A stretch of DNA of 50,420 bases from Deinococcales bacterium (GTDB lineage Bacteria > Deinococcota > Deinococci > Deinococcales > JAAFIG01). The translations under genes were made by a program, and so were the position numbers. Each line of letters begins with the position of its first letter. Within the stretch, counting starts at the first letter, position 1. The stretch covers positions 1 to 50,420 of the forward strand of contig JANYHH010000009.1 in assembly GCA_025359505.1 (NCBI GenBank), written 5' to 3'. Positions 1 to 50,420 of this stretch are shown here, piece after piece. Under the pieces are notes generated by a model. It was not told the DNA's origin. It searched no databases and worked only from the letters and a program-made list of their open reading frames with translations.

Positions 1-2518
1 GTTTCAAGGTTCTGGCTGGAGCGTCACCGAAACCGTAATCGGACGGGACAATGCAGGGCACTGATCTCTGCAAGAGCTTGCAGGTTTTGGGTTGAATCAC
101 TTGCGATGTCCCGTTGGGAAAAAATATTTTCCACTCGAGAACGTACTGACTTGCTGACGTGCCACCCGGGTCATCAATCGTGTAAAACAAGTAAATAAGG
201 GCGCTCGAGCTTGGATGCTGTGAGCCGTCCGTAGGACCAATGATCTTGACCGTGGGTGGTCCACTGGCGGGTTTTGGCACGATGGTCAGGGAAATGGTGG
301 TGGTTGCCTTCAGACCGTAAGCATCAATCCCAGTCAGGCTAATGGTGCGTATTTGATCCGTGGTGAAGACATAATCAAACTCGCAACCGCTACTGGGCAT
401 GGCAGCGTCACTCGGGTTGTTGCTCTTCCAATACAGACTGCTGCAAGGCAACGAACCAAAAATACCGTCGCCGTCAATCGAACTGCCTTTGAAATGCACG
501 CTGGTGCTGTTTGACCAGAGCGGGGTTGGGTCGCTCGGGACGGGCGAATCAATAAAAACTTTGGGCGCAAGATTGATGCCCGTGACCGAAACGCTGGCAC
601 TGGCAGTTGCGCCCTTGTCGTCGGTGGCGGTTGCCGTAAAAATCCGCTTGCCCGGTGTGGCAAAACCTATGCTGATGCTCAGTCCTGTGCCAAGGTCGCC
701 GTCCACGTCAGAAGTCCAGTTGACCGTCGGTGTTGGGCCGTCCGAATCGAGCGCGTTTGCCGTGTAGGTGTTGACTTGCGCGAAGGGGAAGCTCGAGTTG
801 TTGCTGGGCGCGGTGATTTGAATGCTTGGCACGGAATTGGGCGTGCTGTTGAATTCGGCGCTGGGTTTGGTCGCAAAGACCGTGACCTGCGTGAAGTAGG
901 CTTTGGCCCAACTGACCGGAACGTAGACAAATCCGGCATCGCCCCAGCAGTACCCCCACGAGTTCTTGATGATAAAGTACCCGCCGTCCGAGGTTGCCGC
1001 CAAGGTTTTGTAATCGCTCGAGAGGTTTGGGTTTGCTTGAATCTCGTCGTTCGAGACGAAGCCGACCACCTGAACAGCGTGTCGCCCCCAGTTATTGACA
1101 TCTGAAAGTGTGGTCACATAACCCTGACTGTTTGGGTATTTGAAGCCGATTTTCATCAACAGACCCGCAACCATCGGCTGTCCTTTCTTCAGAAACTGAC
1201 GCATCTCGTTTACGGGCAAACCAAAAGCATCGTTGTACCAGTCAAAGATCGTGTTGGGCTTTGATTCTTTAAAACGCTCGCCGCTCGGGGTCGGCATCGT
1301 GAAACCGCAAACACTGAACCCAGTTACGAAAGTGCAAATTTCTTCGAGTTGATGTGAGGCATCTGAGCAGAACTCGGCGTATCCGTTACAGGATTTGGCA
1401 TAAAACTCGAGGTTGGTGTTGTCCACGCGCTGCCAGGACGGGTTGTAATTCCAGGTTTGCTCGAGTGGCAAAGCGTAACTTTGCTCATGAAAATCCTCGG
1501 CTCGGTTGGGCAAGATTGAACCGTCACCGTAGTACCGTGGATCCCATTGCGAAGCGATCTTGCCCCACAAAAACTGTTCAGAGAGGTTCACCCAGCGCCC
1601 CTGTTCGATGGCGATTCGGCTCTCGAGCGCACCAGTCAAAGCGAATCCGCTGCACGTGCCGCGTCTACCCTGTACTTTGACGCTGGTAGCGTAGAACTTT
1701 TGCTTCCACCAAAAATTTTTGTACAAACCATTCGGGCTAAAATCTGTACTGTTGCACGAATCATGATCCAGTCCCTTCCCTGCTCCTTCCTCAAGCGCTG
1801 GCGTGGCTGGGTAATGTTGCGGTTTTGCGTCCGAAGCGACACGTTGCTCGCGCAATTCTGACCTCACCGCAAGTGCATCAGTGAGGACACTCGGGTTCGC
1901 CGCCAGATGCTGACCCAACAGGCGACGCGCATCGAGGATCGTGTCGACACTGGCGTTTGCCAAGCTGTTCGGCGTTGGCAGACCAATGCTCAACGCGTCC
2001 GGCAACGCCGCGAAACTGGCACCGTAGACTTCACGCTGATTGGTCGGATCCAAGTCGCGCTTTCTGGACTCGAGCATGTCGCGGTACAAGCTGGGTTTAC
2101 CATCGGTGACCACCTGAAACGGTCCGCTCTTGCCTTGAATGGTGAGCCGGTAATTCCCATCGGGCAACTGCTCGATGCTCGGGTCATTGAGGTCAGGCTC
2201 GAGCAAGGCTTTGTTGTACGCGGGCGATTGCGCCGCAAGGCGTTTGACTTCAGCGGTATCAATCTGAAATTGAGCATCAGATTTCGCCTTGCGTTCAATC
2301 CGAAGTTTTAATGTGTCCAAGACGAATCCCTCGAGACTCGCTTGGCGTTTGAATTCCTCGGGCGCGACCGTTTTTGCGTCGTCCGGGACCGAACCCCCGA
2401 AGGCATTTTCTGGTTTCAGAATCGGGTCTATGTTGCCTAGTTCGGATTGGCACGCTACCAGATTGATTGACAGGGCGATCAGACTTATGGGGATCAGCAT
2501 GCTGAGAAATCGTTTCAC
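1..2518 (-). CDS. Papain-like (C1A) cysteine protease lipoprotein with Ig/PKD-like domains, C-terminus cut by window edge
   Basis: The frame stays open for 839 codons from a GTG at 2518 to the window edge. The GTG is preceded by a good Shine-Dalgarno (GGAGGT on the minus strand, 2525-2530). The N-terminus is a lipoprotein signal with lipobox LVAC (Cys23), so the product should be anchored outside the membrane. Papain-family landmarks appear in order: oxyanion Gln283 and nucleophile Cys289 in QGRRGTCSGFA, then NLSEQ, His480 in WGRHAVQVVGF, and Asn519 in IKNSWGYCWGDAGF. After about residue 545 come Ig/PKD-like segments (for example TATDDKGATASASV), probably adhesion or spacing modules. The family cleaves peptide bonds; the substrate is unknown. 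The long region before Cys289 may act as a propeptide. It lies 57 bp downstream of the SARP-type regulator gene on the same strand and may be co-transcribed. The catalytic residues are complete, so activity is plausible. Confidence 0.85.
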   Translation of the reverse strand, partial: MKRFLSMLIPISLIALSINLVACQSELGNIDPILKPENAFGGSVPDDAKTVAPEEFKRQASLEGFVLDTLKLRIERKAKSDAQFQIDTAEVKRLAAQSPAYNKALLEPDLNDPSIEQLPDGNYRLTIQGKSGPFQVVTDGKPSLYRDMLESRKRDLDPTNQREVYGASFAALPDALSIGLPTPNSLANASVDTILDARRLLGQHLAANPSVLTDALAVRSELREQRVASDAKPQHYPATPALEEGAGKGLDHDSCNSTDFSPNGLYKNFWWKQKFYATSVKVQGRRGTCSGFALTGALESRIAIEQGRWVNLSEQFLWGKIASQWDPRYYGDGSILPNRAEDFHEQSYALPLEQTWNYNPSWQRVDNTNLEFYAKSCNGYAEFCSDASHQLEEICTFVTGFSVCGFTMPTPSGERFKESKPNTIFDWYNDAFGLPVNEMRQFLKKGQPMVAGLLMKIGFKYPNSQGYVTTLSDVNNWGRHAVQVVGFVSNDEIQANPNLSSDYKTLAATSDGGYFIIKNSWGYCWGDAGFVYVPVSWAKAYFTQVTVFATKPSAEFNSTPNSVPSIQITAPSNNSSFPFAQVNTYTANALDSDGPTPTVNWTSDVDGDLGTGLSISIGFATPGKRIFTATATDDKGATASASVSVTGINLAPKVFIDSPVPSDPTPLWSNSTSVHFKGSSIDGDGIFGSLPCSSLYWKSNNPSDAAMPSSGCEFDYVFTTDQIRTISLTGIDAYGLKATTTISLTIVPKPASGPPTVKIIGPTDGSQHPSSSALIYLFYTIDDPGGTSASQYVLEWKIFFPNGTSQVIQPKTCKLLQRSVPCIVPSDYGFGDAPARTLK

Positions 2519-2575
2519 GTCACTACCTCCGACGCGAAGGGTAGGAAACACGGCGTTGCTCGAGCGTTGCTTGGA

Positions 2576-5500
2576 TTAAATTGTGAGCAGGTCGCGGTTT
2601 TTCTCGAGGAATAACTTTTGTAGTTCGGGGTGATCTTCAAGGCTTGCTGCCATCTCGAGCAGTGATGTTCTGGCGGTTTGGCGGACTTCTTGGGCTTGCT
2701 CGAGGTTGCCATTTGTTTCGAGGGCTTGGGAAAGCGCGACTCGAAGCTCGAGGGCTTCAAGCGGCGGTACACGACCTGACTCGAGTAACTTTGCGGCTTC
2801 TTGCGTTAAGGTTTGGATGTCTGCGCCTAGCCGTGTCGTTGCCTCGAGCCGCAAGGCAATAAGGCGTGACCTGAGTTCGGGATCTGACTCTTGAAGGTGG
2901 GTTTGGATTGTCTCGAGTGCCAATTGCCTTTGACCCAATGCCAGCAACGCCATGCCTTTGAGCCAAGCAACATTGGCATCGTCTTTGCTGTTGGGTTGTT
3001 CGACTTCGAGACGATGCAGCCTATCAAAAGCACGCTTCGGCTCTTTGGCTTTCAAGTCCACAAGCGCCAGCAAAGGCTCGAGACGGTCTTGCAGTCGTGC
3101 CATTTGACCAGCTTCAATCAGTTGACGGGCAGCTTCGAGGTTGATTTTGGCGGCATCAAAGTCGCCCAGTTGAATCAAGACATCGGCAAGATCAATGCTC
3201 GTTTGGGCAAAACTTCGCCCGTTTTTCATTTTGTCTGCAATGCCTTGGGCTTCTTGCAAGAACGTGGTGGCTGCGCCAAGCTCACCCCGCAATCGGTGCA
3301 ATTCCGCAAGGTTGCCCAGGACTGTGCTTTCGGTGGTGTGATGCTGACTTTGGCGGCTTAACACCAACGCTTGCTCGAGTACATCTTTGGCTTTCTCGAG
3401 GTTGGAAGTGATGGTCAAGTAATGTCCGAGGTTCAACAAGCTCGAGATTTCATGGCGGATGCTGCCGACCGCTCGGCTTTGGGTCAGGGCTTGTTCAAAC
3501 CCGAGAAGTGCACTGTTGACATCGCCACTGCTGGCTTGGGCGTAACTGAAATTGATGGTTTGGGTGATCTGTCCAATCTGGTCGTCCAAAAATTCAGCGA
3601 TTGATTTGGCTTGAAGGTGGTATCGCATGGCGTCAATGTAGTTGCCTTGCTCTCGGGCAGATTGCCCAAGCATCGAGTAAATGAAGCCAAGTTGTTTTGA
3701 GGGTTTTAACTCGAGCAACGACAGGGCGGATTTCAAATACGTTTCGGCTTCTTGGGTTTGACCGAGTTTGAACAACACCGCACCGATTAAGGAATCCACT
3801 TCGCAACGTTGGGCGCTTGTCAAGTCAACGCGTGATCGCAGTTGCTCGAGTGGCGATAGCGCATGGTCTTCTGGCGCTGTTTGGCGCAGCAACCTGATTT
3901 GCATGATTCGCAATTCAATCTCGAGGCTTGGATTGTCCAGTCGTGCGACAAGTGGTATCAGGTGTTCAAGTTCGGTTTGCCATTGCCCAAGGTCGCTTAG
4001 CACTGCCAGCAATTGAATTTTGGATTTGCGTATGTTGAAGGCTTCCAGATCGCCCGCGCCATCTTTGAGCGCCAATTGATACTGCTCGAGTGCCTCAGGG
4101 TTGGCATACACTTTTTCTGCCGCCTGTGCCGCCTTCACCCGCCACGGCACAGCCTCAAGCTTCAAGTTAGCTTTCTCGAGGTGATCCGCAATCCGGGCGG
4201 GTGCGCCAAAAGTTTTCTCGAGGCTCGCCGCCAATTTTTTGTGCAGCAATTTCTGGCGCTCAAGCGACAAATTTTCGGCGATGGATGATCGCATCAGGTC
4301 GTGCGCGAATTTGTACCCCTCAGAGAATGGCTCGAGAATTCTGGCTCGAATCGCGGTTTCCAAGCCTTCCAGCCCTTCCCATTCGCTCAGGGCTGTCGCG
4401 CCCTGAAGTGTCTCGAGGCTAAATCCGTCGCTGGTCAGGCTTGCCACCTCCAAAAGTCGTTGCGATGGCGCTCCCAGCCCCCTCACGCGACGCAGCACGG
4501 CCTCGCGGACGCTGGGCGGGATGGGCAGTTCGGCGTAATCGCTGGTGTCACGGTCAAACGGCGTGATCCAAGCGCCGCTCGAGTCCAGCGTCAAGAGTTC
4601 AGTGTCGAACAAATTTCTGATGGTCTCGAGCGCGAAGAACGGGTTGCCGCCCGTGGCACGGTGCAGGCGTTTGGAAAAAAGTGTTGCACCGTCCGCGCCG
4701 GAAAGTCCGCGCACCAACTCGAGTACATCGGTTTCCGCCAGCGCCTCGAGTTCGATCAGCACAGCCTGACCGCTGGCGATGAACTGTTCGATTAGACGTT
4801 CAGTTTCAACCTGCAATTCTCCGCGTCGGAATCCAAGCATCACGTGCCGGCCACTACCAGAGAAACGTTGCAACGCGTGAAAACCCAGCTCGAGGCTGGC
4901 GGCATCAAAAAATTGCAGGTCATCACTGACCAGAGTCGAAACCTCGAGCGTCAGAAGTTCGGCAAACGCCTGAAAGAACCGCAGTCGTTCCTCTGGCGAA
5001 CCCGTGGCTGGCGGTAGCTCGCTGGTTAACTCTGGCACGAGTTTTGAAAGTTCACGCCGTACCCAAGTTGGAATTTCAGTTTTTAACCCTTGCTCGAGCA
5101 TATCCGTGATGCTGCGAGTCGCGGTCGAATACGGCGCGAGGCTGTCACCGGGTCGTCCGGCGCTCTGAAAAAAACTGCCCTTGCTGCTGGCAAACTCGAG
5201 GAGCAACCGCGTTTTGCCCACACCGGGTTCGCCAGAAACAAAAATGATTTGCCCCGCAGTCCAAGCGGCTTCCATTCGCGCCCACACCTCAGCCCTGCCG
5301 ACGAGTGGCGCGGTGCGCGGCAGCAGTAACGCCTGACTCGAAACTCGGGTTTGAGCGCGAGGCATCAGGGTTTGCGCCGCCCGAATCTGCCTTGCCAGTT
5401 CCAACGTTTCTGGCAGCGGCTCGAGCCGGAGTTCGGTGTTCAACATGACCTTGAACCGTTCAAACTGCTCGAGCGCCGCCTCGCGTTCGCCCAGCAGGTA

Positions 5501-6112
5501 ATGCAGCCGCATGATTTCACGGTGCTGACGCTCTTGCAGTTCATCTTGCTCGAGCAGTTTGAGATGCAATTCGAGCGCTCGCCGCCATTCCCCGCGAGTC
5601 TCGAGGCGTTCGGCCAAGTCGAGCATGGCCTTTTTGTGCTGCCGCTCAAAAAACTCGCGTTTGACTTCCAACCACTCGTGAAAGCCGCTCGCGCCTGCAA
5701 GCTCTAAACCCTCCAGCAAGACGCCCTTGTAAAGTCCGAGCGCCGTCTCCGGATCATCTCGAGCGACCGCATCTAGAAACGTTTGAGCGTCGCTCGAGAA
5801 CGGCTCACGCAACCGCAGGTCATCCCCCGCCGATTCGCAACGCCCCCCGAGTTGCGGGGTTTTGGTTTTCATGCGGTGCAATTCACGCCGCAAATTCCGC
5901 CGTGCCGAATCCTCATTCAGATCGCTCCAGAGTAAATCCACCAATTTACTTCTGGAGGTCGAACCTTCGAGCGCCAAATAGGCCATCAGGGCAAGCACTT
6001 TTTTGAACGACAACTTCAATTCTCGGTCATTTAAAACCAGTCGAGCCGAGCCAAAAAAATAGCATTCGAGCGCTTCAGGCGGCGTCATCTCGAAGTATGA
6101 CTCCAGTGACAT
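2576..6112 (-). CDS. SARP-type transcriptional regulator: winged helix, BTAD, AAA ATPase, TPR array
   Basis: This 1178-residue protein has the architecture of large AfsR/LuxR-like SARP regulators. An OmpR-type winged helix lies at about residues 10-95 (ARRNLRRELHRMK is the typical C-terminal helix). A bacterial transcriptional activation domain follows at about 96-245. An NTPase has Walker A GEPGVGKT at 294-301. A long tetratricopeptide-like superhelix fills about 640-1170. Such proteins bind direct repeats upstream of target promoters and may use ATP-dependent oligomerisation. The start ATG at 6112 follows TAATCT by 5 nt with no Shine-Dalgarno, suggesting a leaderless mRNA. The surface protease gene lies 57 bp downstream, so the pair may form an operon with the protease as one target; this is inference. 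The gene is unusually rich in CTCGAG (33 in about 3.5 kb). Confidence 0.85.
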   Translation of the reverse strand: MSLESYFEMTPPEALECYFFGSARLVLNDRELKLSFKKVLALMAYLALEGSTSRSKLVDLLWSDLNEDSARRNLRRELHRMKTKTPQLGGRCESAGDDLRLREPFSSDAQTFLDAVARDDPETALGLYKGVLLEGLELAGASGFHEWLEVKREFFERQHKKAMLDLAERLETRGEWRRALELHLKLLEQDELQERQHREIMRLHYLLGEREAALEQFERFKVMLNTELRLEPLPETLELARQIRAAQTLMPRAQTRVSSQALLLPRTAPLVGRAEVWARMEAAWTAGQIIFVSGEPGVGKTRLLLEFASSKGSFFQSAGRPGDSLAPYSTATRSITDMLEQGLKTEIPTWVRRELSKLVPELTSELPPATGSPEERLRFFQAFAELLTLEVSTLVSDDLQFFDAASLELGFHALQRFSGSGRHVMLGFRRGELQVETERLIEQFIASGQAVLIELEALAETDVLELVRGLSGADGATLFSKRLHRATGGNPFFALETIRNLFDTELLTLDSSGAWITPFDRDTSDYAELPIPPSVREAVLRRVRGLGAPSQRLLEVASLTSDGFSLETLQGATALSEWEGLEGLETAIRARILEPFSEGYKFAHDLMRSSIAENLSLERQKLLHKKLAASLEKTFGAPARIADHLEKANLKLEAVPWRVKAAQAAEKVYANPEALEQYQLALKDGAGDLEAFNIRKSKIQLLAVLSDLGQWQTELEHLIPLVARLDNPSLEIELRIMQIRLLRQTAPEDHALSPLEQLRSRVDLTSAQRCEVDSLIGAVLFKLGQTQEAETYLKSALSLLELKPSKQLGFIYSMLGQSAREQGNYIDAMRYHLQAKSIAEFLDDQIGQITQTINFSYAQASSGDVNSALLGFEQALTQSRAVGSIRHEISSLLNLGHYLTITSNLEKAKDVLEQALVLSRQSQHHTTESTVLGNLAELHRLRGELGAATTFLQEAQGIADKMKNGRSFAQTSIDLADVLIQLGDFDAAKINLEAARQLIEAGQMARLQDRLEPLLALVDLKAKEPKRAFDRLHRLEVEQPNSKDDANVAWLKGMALLALGQRQLALETIQTHLQESDPELRSRLIALRLEATTRLGADIQTLTQEAAKLLESGRVPPLEALELRVALSQALETNGNLEQAQEVRQTARTSLLEMAASLEDHPELQKLFLEKNRDLLTI

Positions 6113-6117
6113 GCTTT

Positions 6118-6123
6118 AGATTA
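6118..6123 (-). promoter_or_regulatory. -10 box TAATCT of the SARP gene (leaderless start)
   Basis: TAATCT on the minus strand ends 5 nt before the ATG at 6112, and no Shine-Dalgarno precedes that ATG. It matches the TANNNT-before-start layout seen at many genes of this window. Confidence 0.5.
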
Positions 6124-6392: not shown

Positions 6393-6706
6393 CCCATAAG
6401 CCAACCGCGATTCGAGCTTGGGCAACGTGGCTGACAGCGAACCCCGCCCCCGCTTGGCTCGAGCCAGAGCCGTGGTTGCGCTGGCTGAACGACCTCGATG
6501 AGCGCGGGATCAGCGCGACCGCTGGGCGGCTCGAGGAACGGTTGAAGCGATTGCGCGAACTTTACAGTGTTGGTGAAGCGCAGGCTGAGATCGTCGCTCG
6601 AGCTATCGCTGGCGGCTGGGCCAACTTTTACCCGCCTCGAACCGCACCCACGCAATCCGCACAGCCGCTCTCGAGAACCGATGACCGTTACGGGCGTTAC
6701 CGATGA
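6320..6706 (+). pseudogene. Fragment of a phage/plasmid replication protein (C-terminal part)
   Basis: The last 90 or so residues look like the C-terminus of phage-type replication initiators that precede a DnaC-like loader. A charged amphipathic helix (RLEERLKRLRELY) is followed by IVARAIAGGWANFYPP, resembling the 'AI..GW.GLF' ending of such proteins. The first part, from the TTG at 6320, is low complexity and probably not original coding sequence, so the N-terminal domain is missing. The TGA overlaps the ATG of the next frame (ATGA at 6703-6706), a normal operon junction, which suggests the order initiator-loader was inherited intact. Confidence in the family rests on position and this short motif only. 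Confidence 0.4.
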
Positions 6707-7476
6707 CCGCTCGCACTGGGAAAACAGTGCTGCTCGGCAACATCATCGCCCTGCCGCGAGCGCCGAGCCGCCCACTCGAGATCAGCGACTCGCTACCGCT
6801 CTGCCCTTGCTGTGGCGCACCCGCTTTTGAGGGCGAGTGGCGCGGCGCGTTCGATTTGCACCACACCTGTGATTGTCTCATCGAGCGAGCTACCCGTTAC
6901 GAGCGAGGCGTTCAACATCTCTGGGAGCGAAGGCAGCGCGAACGCCCCAGCTCGAGACGCTACCGCACGTATACCTTTGATACTTCTGAGCGAACCAATG
7001 GCAATACCATTGCACTCGAGGTCGCCACGCAGCTCAAGCTGGGGCGCACGCTGTTTTTGTAGGGCAATCCCGGCAATGGCAAAACGCATTTCGCCTGCAC
7101 CCTTGGCTTTCGAGCACTCGAGCGTGGCTCAGTCGCGTTTTGGAATGTGGCGGCACTGTACACGAGGTTGCGCGAGTGCGTCGCCCACGATCTACCCAAA
7201 CCGAATTTGCTTGCACCTAGCGTGTTGATCCTCGATGACCTCGGCAAAGTCAAAGCTTCGGAGTTCGTTTATGAAACCCTCTACGGCTGCCCCGAGATGC
7301 GCTGGTCGAACGCCAAGACCACGATTCTAACGGCGAACTATAAACCCAGCGTGGTCGCGGATCGCTTGACGCCCGCGGGCTTGGATCAGCAGGCGTCCGA
7401 CGCGATCCTCTCGAGTCTCGTCGCTGGGCACGTGACCGAAATCATCGGCGAGGATCGCCGCGAGGGGCGCGGGTGA
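6703..7476 (+). pseudogene. DnaC/IstB-like helicase loader interrupted by an in-frame TAG
   Basis: The reading frame is continuous from the ATG at 6703 to the TGA at 7476 except for one TAG at 7060-7062. The first part carries a zinc-ribbon pattern (CPCCG then HHTCDC), common in DnaC-like loaders. Immediately after the TAG come Walker A GNPGNGKTHFA, Walker B VLILDDLGK and a sensor-like TANYKP. The stop sits where relatives usually have an aromatic residue before the P-loop, so a single substitution such as TAT or TAC to TAG would explain it. The ATPase half lacks a good independent start, so the gene is probably inactive. In an active element the product would load the replicative helicase. 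It contains CTCGAG at the same high density as host genes, so it is either old in this lineage or came from a relative. Confidence 0.7.
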
Positions 7477-7706
7477 ACACGAGTAACTCAAGCGGTTCGC
7501 GCTGGCTTAACGGCGCTTCGCTCGAGATCGTGTCAGAGAAACTCGGACACAGCCGCCCAAGCTTCACCGCCGATGTCTACCGCCACACCTTCGAGGACGA
7601 ACACGAGGCGGGGACGCTCGAATTATCCCACTTGACTGCTTCCACCCCTCGTGACACCAGTAGACGCATACGACAGAAAACGTCAAATAAACCCTCCAAA
7701 CAGTGA
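7473..7706 (+). pseudogene. C-terminal fragment of a tyrosine recombinase (integrase)
   Basis: The segment GASLEIVSEKLGHSRPSFT followed by ADVYRHTFEDEHE is the end of a phage-type integrase. LGHS holds the conserved His of the active site and the Tyr in DVYRHTF is the expected nucleophile. The catalytic Arg region and the whole arm-binding and core domain are missing. The frame begins with a GTG that overlaps the stop of the loader remnant (GTGA, 7473-7476), so a deletion has probably fused the two. It points toward the 3' end of tRNA-Ala 130 bp away, the classical arrangement for an element integrated in a tRNA gene. I could not find a second copy of the tRNA 3' end that would mark the other att site. 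Confidence 0.65.
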
Positions 7707-7797
7707 CGAGATCCGCTGCTGTACCGACCTGCCCTAAGCCAAGCGCCTCGAGTCGAGTTCGGTAGCAGCATCAACGGATTCTGTGCATCAACGACAA

Positions 7798-7966: not shown

Positions 7967-9121
7967 TCAGCGCTGCTCGAGCGGGAGCCAGTGCGCGTCG
8001 TCGGGGCCAATGTAATTGGCGGTTGGGCGCAGGATGGAGTTGTGTCGCGTGTACTCGATGATGCTGGCCGTCCAACCCGCGATGCGCGACAACGCGAAGA
8101 TCGGTGTGAAGTAACTCTTCGGCACGCCGAGGTCGCTGAGCACCACTCCGCTGTAGAAATCCACGTTCGGGTAGATGCCGCGGCTACTCAATCGTGCGAT
8201 CACGACCTCCTCGACGCGCTCGAGCGTCGCGTACTCCAACGATTTGCCGTGTTTTTCGGCTGCAATGGCTGCGTATTCCTTCAGGACGCGGCTGCGCGGG
8301 TCAAAAAACTTGTAGACCGCGTGTCCGACGCCCATGATTTTCTCTTTGCGCTCTAATTTGCCGTTGATGTAGCTTTCAGCGTTTTCCGGGCTGCCGATCT
8401 CAGCAAGCATGTCCATCACCGCTTCGTTCGCACCGCCGTGCAGAGGACCTTTAAGGCTGCCAATCGCGCTGGTGATCGCGCTGTATAAATCCGATAATGT
8501 GCTGGCGGTGGCGATGCCGGTGAAAGTGCTGGCGTTCATGCCGTGGTCGGCTTGCAGGATCAACGCGATGTCAAACAGCCGCGTCTGTTCCGGGCTGGGT
8601 TCAGTGGCGTTGAGCATGAACAAGAAGTTCGCTGCGTGCGTCAAATCGCCGCGCGGCGCAACCACCTCTAGATCATGCTGCGTGCGGTACATCGCCGCGA
8701 TCAGCGTCGGCAGTTGCGCGATCAAGTTGTAGGCTTTCTCCAGCTTCCCCGCTTCAGTCACATCGTCGGCGCGAGGATCGAACATCGCTAAGCTGGAGAC
8801 AGCGGTACGCAGCCCGTGCATCGGGTGCAGCCCCTTTGGGAAGAGTTTGATGACCTCGAGTAAACCAGCGGGAATCGCACGACGGCTTTTGAGTTCATAA
8901 TCCAGCGTCGCCAGCTCTGCACTGGTCGGCAGCCGAGCGTTCAGTAATAAAAATGCAGTCTCTTCGTAAGTGCTGTTCTGGGCCAGTTCCTGAATCGGAA
9001 TGCCGACGTATTTGAGGATGCCCTTTTCGCCATCGATGAACGAGAGCTTGGACTCGGTGAATACCACGCCTTTGAGACCATCCATCACGGCGGGTTTGGT
9101 GGAGATATGCACGTCTTGCAT
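7967..9121 (-). CDS. gltA: Citrate synthase
   Basis: This condenses acetyl-CoA and oxaloacetate to citrate, the entry step of the TCA cycle. The 384-residue product has typical family blocks: GLHPMHGLRTAVS, HGMNASTFT, the catalytic His228 in LKGPLHGGAN, His267 in MGVGHAVYK, and Asp321 in YPNVDFYSG. Its length matches the compact Gram-positive/thermophile class rather than the longer NADH-inhibited type. The ATG at 9121 is chosen because AAGGAG (9131-9136) lies 9 nt upstream; the ATG 30 bases further out has no such site. It has only three CTCGAG sites in 1.15 kb, far fewer than its neighbours. It is monocistronic as far as can be seen. Confidence 0.95.
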   Translation of the reverse strand: MQDVHISTKPAVMDGLKGVVFTESKLSFIDGEKGILKYVGIPIQELAQNSTYEETAFLLLNARLPTSAELATLDYELKSRRAIPAGLLEVIKLFPKGLHPMHGLRTAVSSLAMFDPRADDVTEAGKLEKAYNLIAQLPTLIAAMYRTQHDLEVVAPRGDLTHAANFLFMLNATEPSPEQTRLFDIALILQADHGMNASTFTGIATASTLSDLYSAITSAIGSLKGPLHGGANEAVMDMLAEIGSPENAESYINGKLERKEKIMGVGHAVYKFFDPRSRVLKEYAAIAAEKHGKSLEYATLERVEEVVIARLSSRGIYPNVDFYSGVVLSDLGVPKSYFTPIFALSRIAGWTASIIEYTRHNSILRPTANYIGPDDAHWLPLEQR

Positions 9122-9285
9122 CACTAGAAACTCCTTATAACTCGAGGTCACTGCTGATGGGCTGACTCTCGAGGGGACGCGTGGAGTTTACACCGCACGC
9201 AAAAACGAAATCGGTCACTAGTTGGGTTTTAGCAAATCACCCTTGCCAACCGCAAGCCGCAAACGTTCGTTCCCAGCGCAGATGT

Positions 9286-36303: not shown

Positions 36304-37080
36304 TCAGGTCTTGCGGCAACCACTCAAAATCTCCGCCGCCAGCCCCTCGAGCGAGTCTCCCCTGCCCGCCGTGACCACCAATGCACTGCCGACGACCACG
36401 CCGTCCGCCACCTTCGCTACGGATTGCGCGGTGTCGAAACCCGAGATCCCAAAGCCGACCGCGACGGGCTTGTCGGTCACGGCTTTGATGTTCGCAACCA
36501 GCAGCGGCACTTCCTCGGGGATGCCGACTCTCGAGCCGGTCACGCCGGTCACAGACACCGCGTAGATGAAGCCGGTACTTTCCCTTGACACCAACTCGAT
36601 ACGGTCGGTGGTGCTGGTCGGCGCGAGCAGGAAGGTCAGCTTCAACCCGGCTTCTCGAGCCAGTGGGATCAATGTGTCGGCTTCGTCGGGTGGCAGGTCG
36701 GGCAGGATCAGACCATCAATGCCCACCTCGAGTGCCGCGTGAACGAAGCGCTCCTCGCCGATCGACAAAATCGGGTTGTAGTACGTCATCACCATCAGGG
36801 CTTTATCGGTGCGTTGCCTAAGTTCTCGAGCTTGCGCGAACATCCCCATCACGGTCATGCCACCAGCCAGCGCGACCTCGCCCGCTTTTTGGATCACCGG
36901 GCCATCCCCGAGCGGATCGGAGTACGGCATCCCGATCTCGAGTAAATCCGCGTACTCGAGCAATGTGATCGCGTGCTCGAGGAACGCGGCTGGCGTCGGA
37001 TAGCCGGCGGGCAGGTAGCCGATGAAGGCGGCTCGAGATTGGGAGGCGGCGGTGTCAAAAGCGCTTTGAATGCGGTTCAT
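36304..37080 (-). CDS. trpA: Tryptophan synthase alpha subunit
   Basis: TrpA cleaves indole-3-glycerol phosphate and passes indole to TrpB. The 258-residue TIM barrel has the catalytic Glu in LLEIGMPYSDPLGDGPVIQ and Asp in LILPDLPPDEA, plus FIYAVSVTGVTGSR and VGFGISGFDTAQSVAKVADGVVVGSA. The ATG at 37080 overlaps the stop of the GNAT gene (ATGA), so the three genes trpB-GNAT-trpA are translationally coupled. It contains nine CTCGAG copies in 777 bp, in all three codon phases. It abuts a convergent gene directly. Confidence 0.95.
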   Translation of the reverse strand: MNRIQSAFDTAASQSRAAFIGYLPAGYPTPAAFLEHAITLLEYADLLEIGMPYSDPLGDGPVIQKAGEVALAGGMTVMGMFAQARELRQRTDKALMVMTYYNPILSIGEERFVHAALEVGIDGLILPDLPPDEADTLIPLAREAGLKLTFLLAPTSTTDRIELVSRESTGFIYAVSVTGVTGSRVGIPEEVPLLVANIKAVTDKPVAVGFGISGFDTAQSVAKVADGVVVGSALVVTAGRGDSLEGLAAEILSGCRKT

Positions 37081-37556
37081 AGCTTCTCCATCCGTATCAG
37101 TGGGACGCTCGAGTCTTGGATTGGTTGACCGAAGCGGCGATAGCCGAGTGATTCGTAAAGCCTGATGTTATTGGCGCTGCCTGCAGCGGTGAACAACTCG
37201 CACCGAGCGCAGCCCAGCGCGGTCTCGAGCGCCAGAGTCAGCGCCGCGCCGATGCCGCGACCCCTGTGCGCTGGATGGACGGATAGGCGCTCGATCAAGC
37301 CCGTGCCGTCAGCGACGTGACCGCGAATCAATCCGACCAGCGCCCCCTCGAGCTTCGCTTGCAAAAAGGTTTTCACCCTAAACTCCTGCGCGAACGCCGC
37401 AAAGCATTCCTCGAGCGGGGCGAGCTGGTAATCGTCGTGACGGATCGCTTCAGTCATAAACGCCATTTTTTGCAGCGCCAGCGCGTCGGGCAGGTCAGCC
37501 GACTCGAGCGTGACGATCTCGAGCGGCAGGGTCTCGAGGTCAGTGCGTGACTGCAC
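37077..37556 (-). CDS. GNAT acetyltransferase within the trp operon
   Basis: The 159-residue GNAT protein has the acetyl-CoA-binding motif [24 protein letters not shown], followed by [25 protein letters not shown]. It starts at a GTG (37556) lying 17 bp inside the end of trpB and ends overlapping trpA. GNAT enzymes acetylate small amines or protein N-termini; the substrate here is unknown. Being locked between the two tryptophan-synthase genes suggests a link to amino-acid or indole metabolism, but it could be a neutral insertion fixed by coupling. Confidence 0.88.
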
Positions 37557-38772
37557 GGGTGGCTTCCATATCCTCCAGCACGCGCATGACTTCCTGCACG
37601 TCCTTGTCGCCGCGCCCGGACAGGTTGACGACGATCACTTTGTCCTTACCCAATTCTGGCGCTAACGTTCGCAAGTACGCAATCGCATGGGCCGTCTCCA
37701 AAGCCGGGATGATGCCTTCGCACTCAGACAGCAATTTGAAACCCTCGAGCGCTTCGGCGTCGGTGACGGGCACGTACTCCGCCACGCCGCTCTCACTGTA
37801 ATGGCTGTGCTCCGGCCCGATGCCGGGGTAATCCAAGCCCGCGCTGATGCTGTGGGCGGGTGTGATCTGACCGTTTTCGTCTGAAAGCAGGTACATCATG
37901 CTGCCGTGCAGCACGCCGACCTTACCGCCCGCGACGCTTGCGGCGTGCAAGCCAGACTCGACGCCGTGACCGGCCGCCTCGACGCCGATCAAACGCGGGC
38001 GATCCTTCAGGTAGGCATACGGCGCGAAAACGCCGATGGCGTTGCTGCCGCCCCCGACGCAGGCGACGACCGCATCGGGGGTGCTGCGTCCCTCTACCTC
38101 GAGCAATTGGGATTTCACTTCCTCACCGACCACGCTCTGAAAATCGCGCACCATCGCCGGGTACGGGTGCGGGCCAACCACACTGCCCAGCACATAGAAG
38201 GTATCGCGGACATTCGTGACCCAATCGCGGATCGCTTCGTTGGTGGCGTCCTTTAAGGTGCGCGTACCTGATGAAACAGGACGCACTTCCGCGCCCAAGA
38301 GCTTCATTCTGAAAACGTTCAGCGATTGCCGCCGCACGTCTTCCTCGCCCTGATAGACGATGCACTCCAAGCCCATCAAAGCACAGGCGGTCGCGGTGGC
38401 CACGCCGTGCTGACCCGCCCCAGTCTCGGCGATGATGCGCCGCTTGCCCATGCGCTTGGCGAGCAAGACCTGCCCAATGGTGTTGTTGATTTTATGCGCC
38501 CCGGTGTGGTTCAAATCCTCGCGCTTCAAGTAAATCTTCGCGCCGCCCAAGCGCTCGGTCAGATTCTTGGCGAAATACAGTCTCGAGGGTCGCCCGACGT
38601 ACTCGCGCAGGATGGTCTGCAACTCCCCCAGAAACGCCGGGTCTTTTTTGGCGTCTTCGTAAGCGATTCGCAATTCCTCGAGCGCGGGGATCAGCGTTTC
38701 GGGCACGTAACGCCCACCGAAACGACCGTAGCGACCTCGAGCGTTGGGCAGTGGATAAGTTGGGAGAGTCAT
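37540..38772 (-). CDS. trpB: Tryptophan synthase beta subunit
   Basis: TrpB joins indole and serine to form tryptophan with PLP. The 410-residue protein has the N-terminal [18 protein letters not shown], the PLP lysine in [37 protein letters not shown], the phosphate-binding [10 protein letters not shown] and [17 protein letters not shown]. It is a canonical TrpB1 type. The ATG at 38772 follows TAACGT by 6 nt without a Shine-Dalgarno. It is the first gene of trpB-GNAT-trpA. No leader peptide or attenuator is visible upstream. Confidence 0.95.
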
Positions 38773-45528: not shown

Positions 45529-46944
45529 TCATACCAGCGCCCGCCCAGCCTCGCGGCGCTTCGCGGCTTCGTGCGCGATCACAGCCGCCTTCGCGGTTTC
45601 ACCCAGACCGTTCAGCGCGGCCGCGTGCTTCTGCCAGTTGTACGGGCTGCGCGGACGAGCGTCCATGCGTTCACTGCTCAAATCTCGAGCCAGTGCGTAC
45701 TGCCCGTCTCTGAGTGCCGCCTCGAGCAATGTTTTTAAGACCACATCGCGCTGCGCGTGGCTGCCGCCGAACTCGTGCAGCCGCTGGCGAATCGGGTACA
45801 GATAACGCACGCAAGCGGCGTAATTCCCGCGCCCGAACTCGAGCAGCGCCTTGCAGATCGGCAAGCCGATTTCACGGGTCATGCGGGCGTTGCTGACCGT
45901 TGCGGATGGTGATGTCGCCAGCCAACGCTCGCGGCTGGCAATCAGCTCGAGCGCGTCGGATTCCGCGCCCGCGCCGACGAAACTCATCACGGCGTGCATG
46001 TCATTAAAGGCGTAAAAAGCTGGCTCAATTTTCCCGCGCCAGATCGCGGCTTGCTTCAAAAAGCGCTCTCCCACGGCGCGACCCTCGAGCAGCAACCGCC
46101 AGCACAATGCACTCGAGTCCAGCAGCTCGAGCGCATTGTCGCCTTTGTTGTCTGCGAACAACACCGCGTCGTTGATGGCGAGCGCTCGGTCATCGTCACC
46201 TAACTCCAAAGCAAACAGCGCGTAATGCCACCAGTTGTGCAAGTTGAAGTAATTGCCGCTCGTCCAGTCATCCAAGCGCTCGTCAAAAAAACGCGTCCCT
46301 TCCCCGAAGCGCCCCAGCTCCTCATACGTGTGCGTGACCGCGTGAATCCCCCAGACATCCTTCGGGTTGCGCGTCACGGCTTCCAAACCAACCTCGAGCG
46401 CCCGCGTGTGCTGCCCCATCTCCTCTAAGCCGAAGGCGTGCATCCCCAGCAGGTTGCTGTGATGCAAGTCGTCCGCTGTCCACGCGTGCAGTGCATCCCC
46501 GACGCGGCGCTCCAAGCGCAGCGCGTCACCCGTGAAAAAGTCGATTTGATGCCCGACGATCAACGCCATGACATCCCTCGGGTACGCCTGTGAGATCAAT
46601 TCCAGTGCAATGCTCGCGCCGTGAAAATCGCCGTTCAGAAACGCATCAGCGGCTGACAGATGCAGGCGTTCGCGCTCGAGCAGCTTCCCAAGATCGGTTC
46701 GCGCCAGATACGCGTTCAAGTGGACTCGAGCCGCCACAGCCGCTTTGGCTTCAGTTCCCAGCACACCGATGTACCCCCTAAACGCTTGCGCCAACGCGAA
46801 ATCTCCATCCAGCTCGAGCGCAGACTCAATGCAGCCCGCGATATCGCCCCTGAAATGCACGTAGCAATCGAAGGCTGACTCGAGCTGCTGGACTGCGCCC
46901 GCCTCGAGTGCTGTGGTCGCATTGCCCCACTCGTCCTTGTGCAT
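45529..46944 (-). CDS. TTC38-like tetratricopeptide repeat protein
   Basis: The 471-residue all-helical protein resembles tetratricopeptide repeat protein 38: SAFDCYVHFRGDIAGCIESALELDGDFALAQAFRGY near the start, then GNYFNLHNWWHYALFALELGDDDRALAINDAVLF and HEFGGSHAQRDVVLKTLLEAAL. The conserved WGIHAVTHTYEELGR and NWWHYAL stretches are typical of this family across bacteria and animals. The biochemical role is not established. The ATG at 46944 lies 6 nt after TAGAAT. A GNAT gene follows 10 bp downstream. Confidence 0.88.
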   Translation of the reverse strand: MHKDEWGNATTALEAGAVQQLESAFDCYVHFRGDIAGCIESALELDGDFALAQAFRGYIGVLGTEAKAAVAARVHLNAYLARTDLGKLLERERLHLSAADAFLNGDFHGASIALELISQAYPRDVMALIVGHQIDFFTGDALRLERRVGDALHAWTADDLHHSNLLGMHAFGLEEMGQHTRALEVGLEAVTRNPKDVWGIHAVTHTYEELGRFGEGTRFFDERLDDWTSGNYFNLHNWWHYALFALELGDDDRALAINDAVLFADNKGDNALELLDSSALCWRLLLEGRAVGERFLKQAAIWRGKIEPAFYAFNDMHAVMSFVGAGAESDALELIASRERWLATSPSATVSNARMTREIGLPICKALLEFGRGNYAACVRYLYPIRQRLHEFGGSHAQRDVVLKTLLEAALRDGQYALARDLSSERMDARPRSPYNWQKHAAALNGLGETAKAAVIAHEAAKRREAGRALV

Positions 46945-46950
46945 CACCCG

Positions 46951-46956
46951 ATTCTA
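46951..46956 (-). promoter_or_regulatory. -10 box TAGAAT of the TTC38-like gene
   Basis: TAGAAT on the minus strand ends 6 nt before the chosen ATG at 46944. Confidence 0.5.
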
Positions 46957-47009
46957 GCCGCAACCTGCGCGGCTCGAGCGTAGGCTTCATCTCACTCACC
47001 AAGCCTTGA

Positions 47010-47015
47010 TAGGCT
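47010..47015 (+). promoter_or_regulatory. -10 box TAGGCT of the FAH gene
   Basis: TAGGCT ends 7 nt before the ATG at 47023. Confidence 0.45.
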
Positions 47016-47022
47016 CTCATCC

Positions 47023-47784
47023 ATGAAACTCGTTCGTTTTATCGCCGAAAGTTTCTCACCAATTCCCATGTGGGGATCGCTCGAGGGCGACACTGTTTAT
47101 GGCATTTCCCTACCGACGCTCGGGCGCACTGGTCAGAACTGGCGGCGCAGCAGCCTAAAAATGCTGCCGCCCGCCGCACCCACGAAGATTGTGTGCGTCG
47201 GCCGCAATTACGTCGCGCACGCCGCAGAGTTGGGCAACGAAGTGCTCTCCGAACCGGGTTTATTTTTAAAAGCCCCGAACACGCTCGTGCCGACAAACAG
47301 CACCGTCGCGTACCCCGCGTGGTCGGAAAATTTTCAGTTCGAGGGCGAATTGGCACTCGTCTTAAAGCGCCAAGTCAAAAAAATTACGCCAGAAAAAGCG
47401 CTCGAGACGGTGCTCGGCTACACCTGTGCGCTGGATCTGACCGCCCGCGACAAGCAAAAAAGCGATCTGCAATGGTTCCGCGCCAAAGGCAGCGACGGCT
47501 TCCTGCCGATTGGCCCACACCTCGAGACCGTATTAGACCCCAGCAACGTCCAAGTCACCACTCGAGTCAACGGCGTCACCAAGCAAGACAGCAGCACCGC
47601 GCAGATGATCTACAACGTGCCATTCATCATCAGTTACGTCTCGCAATTCATGACTCTGGAATCGGGCGATGTCATCATCACCGGCACGCCCGAAGGCGTC
47701 GGGCCGCTCGAGCCGGGCGATAAGGTCGAGGTCGAAGTCAGCGGGATTGGCGTTTTGGAGACGATGATTGGCCCGAAGGCATAG
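47023..47784 (+). CDS. Fumarylacetoacetate hydrolase-family protein
   Basis: The 253-residue protein has the FAH fold: KIVCVGRNYVAHAAELG, PGLFLKAPNTLVPTNSTV, FEGELALVLKR (metal-binding Glu residues), ALDLTARDKQK, RAKGSDGFLPIGP, and DVIITGTPEGVGPLEPGD at the end. Members hydrolyse or decarboxylate beta-keto acids in aromatic degradation (for example hpcE-type isomerase/decarboxylase) or act as acylpyruvases. The exact substrate is not shown. Leaderless after TAGGCT. It is the first gene of a tightly overlapped set running to the right edge. Confidence 0.9.
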   Translation: MKLVRFIAESFSPIPMWGSLEGDTVYGISLPTLGRTGQNWRRSSLKMLPPAAPTKIVCVGRNYVAHAAELGNEVLSEPGLFLKAPNTLVPTNSTVAYPAWSENFQFEGELALVLKRQVKKITPEKALETVLGYTCALDLTARDKQKSDLQWFRAKGSDGFLPIGPHLETVLDPSNVQVTTRVNGVTKQDSSTAQMIYNVPFIISYVSQFMTLESGDVIITGTPEGVGPLEPGDKVEVEVSGIGVLETMIGPKA

Positions 47785-48662
47785 TGCTCGAGGTTAGCCC
47801 GTTTCAGCCAGCTCAAAGCACTGACCTCGAGCGGATTGCTCGACTGATCTTCGAGGATTCAGACGCCGCCGCAACCGAGGGCGCAGCCGTGCGGGTCGCC
47901 CACTGGGACGGTGCACTCGTCGGTTTCGCCACGCGCTCCGAGCGCCGGGTTCACCCACACGCCTCGAGCCTGACGATTGGTGTGCTACCCGAGTTTCGCA
48001 ATTTGGGCGTCGGCGGTGCGTTGTGGCAGGCAATGACGGCGACTATGCCGAGCGACCGCGTGTGGCGCGTCGGTCTGAGCGAGGATCGGGAGCTTGGCAA
48101 AGCGTTTCTCGAGCGGCGCGGGTTTCGCGTTGTGCGCCAGACTTGGTTCGCTGCGCTCGAGGTCGCACCTGCAATCAGCCTCGAGCCTGATTTGATCTGG
48201 GCGCAGCCGCCCTCAAAGTCAGTATTGGCAGGTCTCATCCGCGATCATTACATCGCCACGCACGGCATCAACCCGCCTGCTGAAATGAGCCTCGAGACTT
48301 GGCAAGAGCTATTTCTAGACGAGGCGCTGCCCGATTCTGTGCGACTGTTGACACAATCGGGTCAGCCAATCGCCGCCGCTGCGCTCGCACCGAACCTCGA
48401 TAATCTCCCGAACACGCTGGACGTGGCGTTCCTCAGCGTTCGCCCGGATTGGCACGCTCGAGCGCAAGCCCTCGTGCCAGCGCTACTGAACGAACTGTTG
48501 GATGCCGCTCGAGCGCACAGCGCGACACAGGTGATGCTCGAGGTCGACAGCACCGATCCCGTGGCGCTGCACGCCTTAGATCAGTCCACGGTGAAAGGCG
48601 CGTGCTGGCTGACCTTGCAAACCGGCATCCCAGACCCAACTGCCCGTACAATTGCGGGATGA
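47784..48662 (+). CDS. Double-GNAT-like acetyltransferase
   Basis: The GTG at 47784 shares its first base with the last base of the FAH stop (TAGTG). The 292-residue product has a first GNAT domain (LTIGVLPEFRNLGVGGALWQAM, FLERRGFRVVRQTWFAALEV) and a second half (SLETWQELFLDEALPDSVRL, LSVRPDWHARAQALVPALLNELLDAARAHSATQVMLEVDSTDPVAL) that looks like a degenerate second one. The substrate is unknown. It overlaps the next gene at its 3' end. Confidence 0.85.
   Translation: MLEVSPFQPAQSTDLERIARLIFEDSDAAATEGAAVRVAHWDGALVGFATRSERRVHPHASSLTIGVLPEFRNLGVGGALWQAMTATMPSDRVWRVGLSEDRELGKAFLERRGFRVVRQTWFAALEVAPAISLEPDLIWAQPPSKSVLAGLIRDHYIATHGINPPAEMSLETWQELFLDEALPDSVRLLTQSGQPIAAAALAPNLDNLPNTLDVAFLSVRPDWHARAQALVPALLNELLDAARAHSATQVMLEVDSTDPVALHALDQSTVKGACWLTLQTGIPDPTARTIAG
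48647..48652 (+). promoter_or_regulatory. Internal -10 box TACAAT before the MBL gene
   Basis: TACAAT ends 6 nt before the MBL start at 48659 and lies inside the GNAT coding region, suggesting an internal leaderless promoter. Confidence 0.45.
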
Positions 48663-49555
48663 TTGTCCACACTGCCGACCTCGAGCTGATGGGCGCTCCG
48701 GGCGTGGTCGCCGCGTATCTCATCCCCTCGAGCGACGGGCTGATCGTCGTGGACTGCGGGCCCGGCAGCACATTGCCGAAGCTCAGGTCAGCGGTCTCGA
48801 GCCTCGGCTACGACGCGGCGGACATCCGCCATATCCTGTTGACGCACATTCATTTGGATCACGCGGGTGGAGCGGGTCAGTTAGCGCTCGAGACAGGCGC
48901 GACAGTGTACGTGCATCAGCGCGGCGCAGTCCATCTTTTGAACCCAGCGCGGTTGATGCAGAGCGCGACCCAGATTTACGGCGCGATGATGGACACGCTC
49001 TGGGGCGCGTTCTTGCCCGTCAGCGAGGCGCAATTGCAGCCGCTCGAGGGTGGTGAGACGCTGCGGCTCGGCAACCTTGAGATTTGTGTCGCCTACACGC
49101 CCGGTCACGCGGTGCATCACCTGACGTACGCGCTGGACGGTCACGTGTTCTGCGGCGATGTCGGCGGCGTGCGCTTGCAGGGCAGCCCGTACCTGATCGC
49201 GCCGACGCCACCGCCGGATATTGATCTCGAGCTGTGGCGCGAATCGATCAGTAAGCTCAGATCGCTCGAGCCGCACACGCTGTACCCAACGCATTTTGGA
49301 GCGCATTTGGATGCGGCAGCTCACCTCACTAAACTCGAGGCGAGTCTGGACGCGCTCGAGTCGCTGTCGCTCGAGGTGCTGCGGGCAGGCGGTGGGCGCG
49401 ATGAAATCGCGGCGCGAATCGGAGAACACGCGAGGCTCGAGTTGAACAATTCGACGTTTGAAACCAAGTACGCGCTCAGCACGCCGTACCCGATGGCGGC
49501 GGACGGGCTGATGCGCTACTGGAAGAAATATCACCCGCATAGGCTCGAGCCGTGA
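48659..49555 (+). CDS. Metallo-beta-lactamase-fold hydrolase
   Basis: The 298-residue MBL protein has LIVVDCGPGST, THIHLDHAGG (HxHxDH), YTPGHAVHHLTY, FCGDVGG with the bridging Asp, and YPTHFGAHLDA. The pattern fits the glyoxalase II-like or general MBL hydrolase groups. The ATG at 48659 overlaps the GNAT stop (ATGA) and also lies 6 nt after an internal TACAAT. The C-terminal helical extension (LEASLDALESLSLEVLRAGG) is typical of MBL proteins that add a lid. Substrate unknown. Confidence 0.9.
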   Translation: MIVHTADLELMGAPGVVAAYLIPSSDGLIVVDCGPGSTLPKLRSAVSSLGYDAADIRHILLTHIHLDHAGGAGQLALETGATVYVHQRGAVHLLNPARLMQSATQIYGAMMDTLWGAFLPVSEAQLQPLEGGETLRLGNLEICVAYTPGHAVHHLTYALDGHVFCGDVGGVRLQGSPYLIAPTPPPDIDLELWRESISKLRSLEPHTLYPTHFGAHLDAAAHLTKLEASLDALESLSLEVLRAGGGRDEIAARIGEHARLELNNSTFETKYALSTPYPMAADGLMRYWKKYHPHRLEP

Positions 49556-50238
49556 GTGACGCGGATGAGCAGCATCTCGAGATGCTGCTCGAGACGGGCT
49601 TCGGCGCTACCGGCGCGAGTTTCACCGAGAAAGTCTCGAGCGTGGAAACCAAGCTCCCCGCGCCGCTGGTCATGCAACTCAGGGCGGTCTACATCACCGC
49701 GCGGCAGCTCGAGACGGGCGGCACGGTCGATATCAGCTCGTACCGCCAGATGCTGCACTCGAGCGCTGAGCAACTCGAGTTACTGGCACGACCACAAGTT
49801 GCCGTAGCGCCGCAACCAGCCGCGCAGCCCGCCGCACCCACCAAACCTCGAGTCACCCGCACGCCGCGCAGCCCAGCCCCCTCGAGACTCGCGTGGTGGC
49901 TGCACGACACGCGCACGCGCATCCCCGCTCGAGCGCAACGCTTGAGCCGCACGTGGCGGTTGCCGATGGCTGTGTTGGGGTTGCTAATCGGTGCGGGTAC
50001 AGGCTGGATCATCGCTGGCGTCGGCGGCGCGATTGCGCTCGCACTGCTGCTCGCCGTCATTATGCACTCGAGTTACAGCGAAACTACATTGGCTCGAGGG
50101 CTGTGGGCGCAGACCAACGCAGTCGCGGGGTTTTTTGCATTGCTGCGATTGCTGGGAACGGCGGCGCTGGCGGTGCTGAGCATTGTGATCGTCGGGCTGA
50201 TCGTGTTTTTCGTCACGCGATTCTGGAACGTAAGATAA
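49552..50238 (+). CDS. Membrane protein with disordered linker, unknown function
   Basis: The 228-residue protein starts at a GTG overlapping the previous stop (GTGA). Residues 1-78 form a small helical domain (MSDADEQHLEMLLETGFGATG...). Residues 80-110 are Pro/Ala-rich and probably disordered (VAVAPQPAAQPAAPTKPR). Two or three transmembrane helices follow (LPMAVLGLLIGAGTGWIIAG and ALALLLAVIMHS at about 137-172, then FFALLRLLGTAALAVLSIVIVGLIVFFVTRFW at about 194-225). No family recognised. The tight coupling suggests it acts with the upstream MBL hydrolase. Confidence 0.75.
   Translation: MSDADEQHLEMLLETGFGATGASFTEKVSSVETKLPAPLVMQLRAVYITARQLETGGTVDISSYRQMLHSSAEQLELLARPQVAVAPQPAAQPAAPTKPRVTRTPRSPAPSRLAWWLHDTRTRIPARAQRLSRTWRLPMAVLGLLIGAGTGWIIAGVGGAIALALLLAVIMHSSYSETTLARGLWAQTNAVAGFFALLRLLGTAALAVLSIVIVGLIVFFVTRFWNVR
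50231..50236 (+). promoter_or_regulatory. -10 box TAAGAT before the last gene
   Basis: TAAGAT ends 5 nt before the ATG at 50242 and overlaps the end of the previous gene. Confidence 0.4.
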
Positions 50239-50241
50239 GCC

Positions 50242-50420
50242 ATGCGTCACGCGCTCGGATTGCCATTGCCAGACGCAACGCTCGAGACGTGGGCGCGACA
50301 TTTCTGTTTTGAACTCGAGCCGCTGTTTATTGATGCAGTGCTCAAAGCGAAACTCGAGCCGCACGCGTTGGTGATGACTCGAGCTGAGTTTGACGGCTGG
50401 TCGCGCTCGCAGCCGCTCGA
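50242..50420 (+). CDS. Partial unknown gene at the right edge
   Basis: From the ATG at 50242 the frame stays open to the window end (59 codons): MRHALGLPLPDATLETWARH, then a helical-looking stretch rich in Leu-Glu (encoded by CTCGAG). No motif is recognisable in this fragment. It starts 3 bp after the previous stop and 5 nt after TAAGAT. It continues the right-hand operon. Confidence 0.6.
   Translation, partial: MRHALGLPLPDATLETWARHFCFELEPLFIDAVLKAKLEPHALVMTRAEFDGWSRSQPL

Follow-up and report, generated by a model that had tools for sequence, protein, structure and literature searches.

The palindrome CTCGAG is iterated throughout the 50,420-bp stretch of Deinococcales DNA analysed here (the window; positions 1 to 50,420 of contig JANYHH010000009.1), and this iteration is real and extends over the whole genome. 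The word belongs to the highly iterated palindromes, the kind named HIP in cyanobacteria, and in the window's family (f1) and in genus g5 of its sister family (f2) it is about 19–37 times as frequent as its near-misses, the words that differ from it by one letter. The pressure behind it operates on DNA, since all codon phases and non-coding runs are enriched and synonymous shuffling leaves most sites unexplained, and the excess is found at any GC content.

CTCGAG in the window and its genome

The window (GC content, 59.4%) contains 338 copies of CTCGAG at a mean spacing of 149 bp, where its composition predicts 16.2 and a third-order Markov model 87.8. The first-pass annotation had correctly set the chance expectation near one per 3 kb. 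A maximal-order model predicts 280, a figure that is uninformative because most copies of CTCGA and TCGAG sit within CTCGAG. The second palindrome of the window, AGCGCT, occurs 64 times. The whole genome (G000; 4,230,927 bp in 127 contigs) has 27,118 copies of CTCGAG, one per 156 bp or about 6,400 per Mb, and nine of GAGCTC, the reversed word of the same composition.

Detailed counts were made in 21 stretches of G000 (362,623 bp), namely the window and 20 contig starts, including one 2,939-bp contig that consists entirely of N. The 2259 copies of CTCGAG found there compare with expectations of 111 from composition, 144 from a dinucleotide (first-order) model and 591 from a third-order model. 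The count against a Markov model and other palindromes, which the first-pass annotation had proposed as a check, thus left the third-order expectation far behind and placed CTCGAG first of all 64 palindromic hexamers in excess over composition. The runner-up, AGCGCT, was mildly raised (354 versus 111 expected). In the pooled G000 sequence, 2788 exact copies stand against 2453 copies of all 18 one-mismatch words combined. The iterated unit is CTCGAG itself. The TaqI-type core TCGA, which the first-pass annotation had pointed to, lies at composition level once it is counted outside CTCGAG (3514 − 2259 = 1255 versus 1276 expected), and an extended motif was also rejected, since a preceding G and a following C are found at frequencies of 0.42 and 0.45 at sites and 0.37 and 0.38 at near-misses, which is mostly background.

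The word is not a product of codon usage. In 246 long open reading frames (ORFs) of G000, 1636 sites were counted, whereas shuffling synonymous codons within genes left 320 (standard deviation 13). Codon or dicodon bias could appeal to the 978 of the 1636 coding sites that lie in the Leu-Glu frame. However, the three phases hold 978, 259 and 399 sites against 267, 14 and 40 after shuffling, so that shuffling falls short by factors of 19 and 10 in phases 1 and 2, and the non-coding, stop-rich runs (35 runs, 3518 bp) contain 26 sites against 0.8 expected, a 33-fold excess. The shuffle and the non-coding counts rule out such bias, to which we give practically no chance, and the proposal of the first-pass annotation that selection or mutation acts on the DNA and not on the protein is borne out. 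Neither outcome that it had named as fatal, a Markov-level frequency or a codon bias with no non-coding excess, was found. The spacing of sites in G000 is near-exponential (mean 157, median 107), with fewer gaps below 12 bp than expected (41 versus 87); none of the 2761 neighbouring pairs is exactly 6 apart, a spacing that would create GAGCTC.

Along with the CTCGAG excess, Leu-Glu pairs are over-represented in the proteins. The observed/expected ratio of these pairs is 2.41 in G000, 2.15–2.22 in the remaining f1 genomes, 2.22 in f2 g5 and 1.31 in G001. Within family f4 it is 1.49 in g10, 1.80 in g11 and 1.40 in g12. The pool of f3 and g14 gives 1.15, as does f5 g24, while the rest of f5 is at 1.07, g13 at 1.05 and G004 at 1.00 (40 pairs only). 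The features of the window that bear on these counts are as follows.

1..50420, no strand: whole window; 338 CTCGAG sites.
2576..6112, minus strand: long gene of 1178 aa with weak matches to TPR proteins only; 33 sites, codon phases 29/1/3.
6400..7760, no strand: putative mobile-element remnant, as labelled in the earlier reading; 11 sites.
7967..9151, minus strand: gltA, citrate synthase; 4 sites in a 1185-bp frame.
36304..37080, minus strand: trpA, 777 bp; 9 sites, phases 5/3/1.
37540..38772, minus strand: trpB; 5 sites, phases 3/1/1.

Our recount reproduced the hand counts of 33 sites in 2581–6120, 11 in 6400–7760 and nine in trpA in all three phases, and corrected that of gltA, which had been given as 3 in 1155 bp. 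The trpA sites are translated as Leu-Glu, Ser-Arg-Ala, Ala-Arg-Glu and Gly-Ser-Arg. An ORF resembling GNAT acetyltransferases (37077–37556, minus strand) lies between trpB and trpA and overlaps both.

Several other palindromes are nearly absent from the G000 sample (GGCGCC, 0 of 237 expected; CAGCTG, 1; CTGCAG, 2; GAGCTC, 2; 111 expected for each of the latter three). In the f1 and f2 g5 samples, GGCGCC, CCGCGG, GCGCGC, GAGCTC, CGTACG and GACGTC are nearly absent. The excess could be pictured as a by-product of restriction avoidance, in which nucleases purge many palindromes and a protected CTCGAG remains, and the near-absent words, several of which are also scarce in further samples from f1 and g5, fit this picture. 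However, protection alone should leave CTCGAG near expectation and not at 20 times that level, the non-palindromic near-misses are not raised, and in genus g12 of f4, where CTCGAG is in excess, GAGCTC stands at 1.2 times its expected level. We consider this explanation highly improbable.

Gradient across the phylum, turnover of sites and phages

Word counts across the phylum (111 genomes) revealed an excess that is greatest in f1 and f2 g5, weaker in the Meiothermus-type genera (f4 g10–g12, 22 genomes) and absent from G004 and the Thermus-type genomes (g13, 27 genomes, which we take to be Thermus). CTCGAG occurs 5.9–6.4 times per kb in the four f1 genomes, 7.7 and 6.2 times in f2 g5, 3.6 times in G001 and 0.3 times in G004 (f2); the Meiothermus-type genomes have 1.4–3.4 and the Thermus-type genomes 0.6–1.1 per kb. 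Ratios of sites to near-misses were tabulated for 66 genomes with at least 7 kb sampled (G049, G081 and G107, below 7 kb, were excluded); the samples are non-random, with many stretches chosen for their methylase genes. The ratio is 20 in G000 at 59% GC, 19 in G007 at 51%, 37 in G003 and 33 in G005 at 49%, and 33 in G006 at 46%, and such high values from 46% to 59% leave GC content as no explanation. It is 2.5 in G001, whose sample consists mostly of methylase islands, 0.6 in G004 and 1.3–2.2 in eight g13 genomes. Two genomes with an XhoI-type nuclease, G012 and G014 (f3 g8), have ratios of 0.9 and 0.6 and no excess, and three congeners have 2.2–3.7.

We compared rpoB and rpoC in 20 genomes (partial in G002, G003, G005 and G096) and defined occupancy as the fraction of the positions within synonymous reach of CTCGAG at which the word is present. 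Occupancy is 0.51–0.66 in f1, 0.46–0.65 in G001–G003, 0.28–0.39 in five genomes of f4 g10–g12, 0.33 in G008, 0.28–0.33 in f5 g24, 0.10–0.12 in two other f5 genomes, 0.09–0.11 in two g13 genomes and 0.03 in G004. Between f1 genomes, at unchanged amino acids, 64–81% of sites are common to both members of a pair, against 20–34% of comparable dicodons. At Leu-Glu positions the data do not call for preservation of individual sites: a non-site in one f1 genome is a site in its partner in 50–83% of the few cases (4–8 positions per pair). With all phases taken together this share is 28–50%, so part of the site sharing may reflect site memory or the mix of phases. From G001 to G004, 2 of 14 sites at unchanged amino acids were retained, against 46% of control dicodons. 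High occupancy thus goes with a near-equilibrium turnover of individual sites, which suggests that a position-independent pressure maintains CTCGAG, as with HIP1 of cyanobacteria.

Phages of CTCGAG-enriched hosts carry the word as well, in the few cases available. Scanning IMG/VR for the pattern yielded 20 contigs. One of them, L220 (60.5 kb, of which 10.8 kb was read), encodes terminase, portal and head proteins and contains 6.9 CTCGAG per kb, 18 times its near-misses, with no GAGCTC. Its best phage matches are one Thermus phage and two Meiothermus phages, over short stretches at 70–73%. In the Meiothermus phages MMP7 and MMP17, where CTCGAG is the top palindrome, it occurs 2.7 and 2.6 times per kb, or 6.0 and 5.8 times as often as its near-misses; two Thermus phages lack such an excess, with Riverbug at 0.68 per kb (1.5 times near-misses) and P23-45 at 0.12 per kb in its first 50 kb. 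Since MMP7 and MMP17 are much alike, these phages are a handful of cases and no survey. Phages tend to avoid words that their hosts cut, and L220, MMP7 and MMP17 show the opposite. Other contigs of the scan did not resemble L220: CTCGAG is piled in part of the stretch in L203, L207, L210 and L218, whereas it is evenly scattered in L220; GAGCTC is abundant too in L213 and L214; and the remaining contigs have only a mild CTCGAG density. In MMP17, an annotated endonuclease of the very-short-patch-repair type adjoins a D12 adenine methylase (L222:26062–27388), and this gene order recurs in MMP7, with a DUF559 protein and an adenine methylase.

The phages also bear on the idea of an uptake signal, in which competent cells would prefer CTCGAG-bearing DNA and recombination would spread the word. 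Thermus species, which are related, are naturally competent, and the sites are everywhere, as such a signal would have them. However, a 6-bp word every 156 bp is far denser than known uptake words, and temperate-type phages carry CTCGAG too. We regard an uptake signal as very improbable, if slightly less so than restriction avoidance.

Methylases and other candidate drivers

The first-pass annotation had guessed at a cognate methyltransferase. This guess was supported in part: relatives have PaeR7I-like methylases with no XhoI-type nuclease, but the protein families searched yielded no methylase common to the enriched f1 and f2 genomes. The PaeR7I-like enzymes (family B) were found in seven genomes only (G024, G025, G026, G030, G039, G043 and G108). 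Like PaeR7I/XhoI restriction-modification, they include a methylase 46–69% identical to PaeR7IM, which is annotated next to paeR7IR in plasmid pRSB105. Unlike such systems, six of the seven genomes gave no match to the XhoI-type nuclease (PF04555), and in the seventh, G108, the nuclease gene beside the methylase is interrupted by stops (G108:C1:1095688–1096226; L153, L154). This nuclease was matched in four of the 111 genomes (G012, G013, G014 and G108), with no match in f1, f2 or f4. PaeR7I/XhoI systems alone do not fill genomes with sites, and the sampled nuclease carriers G012 and G014 have no excess.

Family A, which has the M_Eco57I C-terminal domain, is found in 23 of the 111 genomes. 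In g12 it occurs in 14 of 18 genomes and family B in the remaining four, a complementarity with a chance of 1 in 3060 given these totals, with kinship ignored and with diverged B genes able to escape the profile. Family C, an N6/N4-type methylase (L099:7195–8160, beside trpBA; L103:7067–7963; and relatives, 63–98% identical over most matches), is found in 21 of 22 g10–g12 genomes and in one of 27 g13 genomes. A PaeR7I-like or family A methylase is found in 20 of 22 f4 g10–g12 genomes. Of the 66 tabulated genomes, 29 have A or B, and in 27 of these CTCGAG outranks every other palindrome when each is set against its near-misses. The same holds in f5 for 8 of 9 genomes with A or B versus 1 of 10 without (Fisher p 0.001), and in f4 for 19 of 20 versus 3 of 11; for family C in f4, it holds for 21 of 22 with the gene versus 1 of 9 without. 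G109 was tabulated as carrying A and B; its second gene was later shown not to belong to family B, and its family A gene stands.

Neighbours of family A are pyk, eno or dnaN at L053, L054, L062 and L063, and dnaG or V-ATPase genes at several f5 loci. Neighbours were named by profile only at L061 and L062; most neighbouring ORFs are unannotated, and a nuclease of an unnamed type is possible among them. In five plasmid neighbourhoods (L156–L160) among 90 matched records, an unnamed ORF of 248–343 aa lies behind each relative of family A; none of these five matched Pfam or NCBIfam, and they are possibly nuclease families with no name.

We tentatively consider that a methylation-linked drive or selection lies behind the CTCGAG excess, a reading to which we give somewhat less than an even chance. 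A genome-wide, position-independent pressure on DNA, resident in the cell, would maintain CTCGAG. The word would be marked by a CTCGAG-specific adenine methyltransferase with no nuclease, either PaeR7I-like or replaced by family A. New sites would then be favoured and lost ones restored, through repair that depends on methylation or through weak selection in favour of methylated sites. CTTGAG, the expected product of uncorrected 5-methylcytosine decay, has no excess in the G000 sample (182 versus 151), so adenine methylation fits better than cytosine methylation. The ratio of sites to near-misses in f1 and g5 (ln 3.0–3.6) indicates that a weak force per site suffices. In its fullest form, this reading would make CTCGAG a long-standing label of resident DNA across much of the phylum: the methylase would have been swapped more than once for unrelated enzymes, methylation-dependent repair would convert near-misses to CTCGAG in every resident molecule, temperate phages included, and in f1 and f2 the drive would be strong enough to alter the amino-acid make-up of the proteome. 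We regard this full form as unlikely.

Several observations weigh against a methylase as the driver. The CTCGAG specificity of family A is inferred solely from its complementary distribution with family B. CTCGAG is the top palindrome in 14 of the 37 sampled genomes with neither A nor B; G071 and G073 have it on top with none of A, B and C. The association counts ignore kinship among genomes. Conversely, G039 (B) and G082 (A) do not have CTCGAG on top, and the Thermus-type G046 has family C and no excess. Families A and C gave no match in the f1 or f2 genomes, where the excess is strongest, and the only kin of family B there is L050 of G000, 25% identical to PaeR7IM and beside a 307-aa ORF; L050 is a possible CTCGAG methylase of G000. 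Lastly, five profiles (PF02384, PF07669, PF01555, PF00145 and PF02086; other classes unsearched) revealed no methylase common to the enriched f1/f2 genomes. The matches were extracted in part, leaving aside several type I subunits, some long or weak matches and the D12 matches of G000 and G003; the f1/f2 genomes are 58–97% complete, and G002 (58%) gave no methylase match. The three distinct matches listed for G001 have no close relative among the extracted proteins of other genomes, and none of the five extracted from G006 is common to all f1/f2 genomes. Two candidate groups were rejected as the common enzyme since each covers only some of the enriched f1/f2 genomes, namely family D (G000, G003 and G030; 64–66% identical) and a group of C5 methylases (G003, G005 and G006; 59–74% identical).

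In f1 and f2, the driver may thus be an enzyme that escaped these searches, a set of unrelated enzymes or a protein that is not a methylase. In the last case, CTCGAG would be recognised by a conserved protein: a recombination nuclease that it restrains in the manner of Chi, a protein of the nucleoid or an enzyme of sequence-aware repair. The methylases would then be incidental. The lack of a common methylase in f1/f2 and the genome-wide scatter of sites agree with this explanation, as do the enriched phages, since phages can benefit from carrying Chi-type host signals. However, known Chi sites are asymmetric and CTCGAG is palindromic, and the complementarity of families A and B, of which one is PaeR7I-like, would be coincidental. 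We consider a non-methylase driver rather unlikely, though the leading rival.

Relation to known systems and biological meaning

The resemblance to HIP1 drawn by the first-pass annotation is apt. HIP1 (GCGATCGC) and the alternate HIPs of cyanobacteria are described by Elhai 2015 (PMC4390886), and the CTCGAG case shares with them a single palindrome hugely over-represented across the genome, an excess not caused by codons, a patchy occurrence among relatives and, more tentatively, an association in some genomes with methylases that recognise the iterated word. Like the alternate HIP GGCGCC, it is a plain 6-mer. It differs from HIP1 in word and phylum: the HIP1 word contains CGATCG, which is under-represented in the G000 sample (48 versus 111 expected). 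At about 6,400 per Mb, it is also denser than most HIPs described there (500–2,500 per Mb, with one degenerate word higher), and the most enriched family yielded no matching methylase. CTCGAG is absent from the main text of that paper, and an excess in this phylum is not described in the titles and abstracts of the open-licence literature searched. In Nocardia, an orphan methylase with no nuclease recognises CTCGAG, according to the parts of Blow 2016 (PMC4752239) that concern it; there, the motif clusters near dnaA, whereas here it is scattered with near-exponential spacing. A report on CTCGAG near CpG in the honeybee (PMC3903499) is unrelated.

Ever since HIP1, it has been an open question why certain bacterial genomes are filled with a single palindrome. 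CTCGAG adds a denser, shorter HIP-like word from a different phylum. Its excess ranges from absent to extreme across related genomes, with one natural loss (G004) and with phages that resemble their hosts in CTCGAG content. Since M. ruber is cultivated and its PacBio reads are public, as indicated in PMC4671558, the methylation idea is testable. The lineage with the CTCGAG flood is a little-studied relative of Meiothermus, with a DNA-level process that may well be tied to DNA methylation and a bias on DNA strong enough to accompany a changed protein composition.
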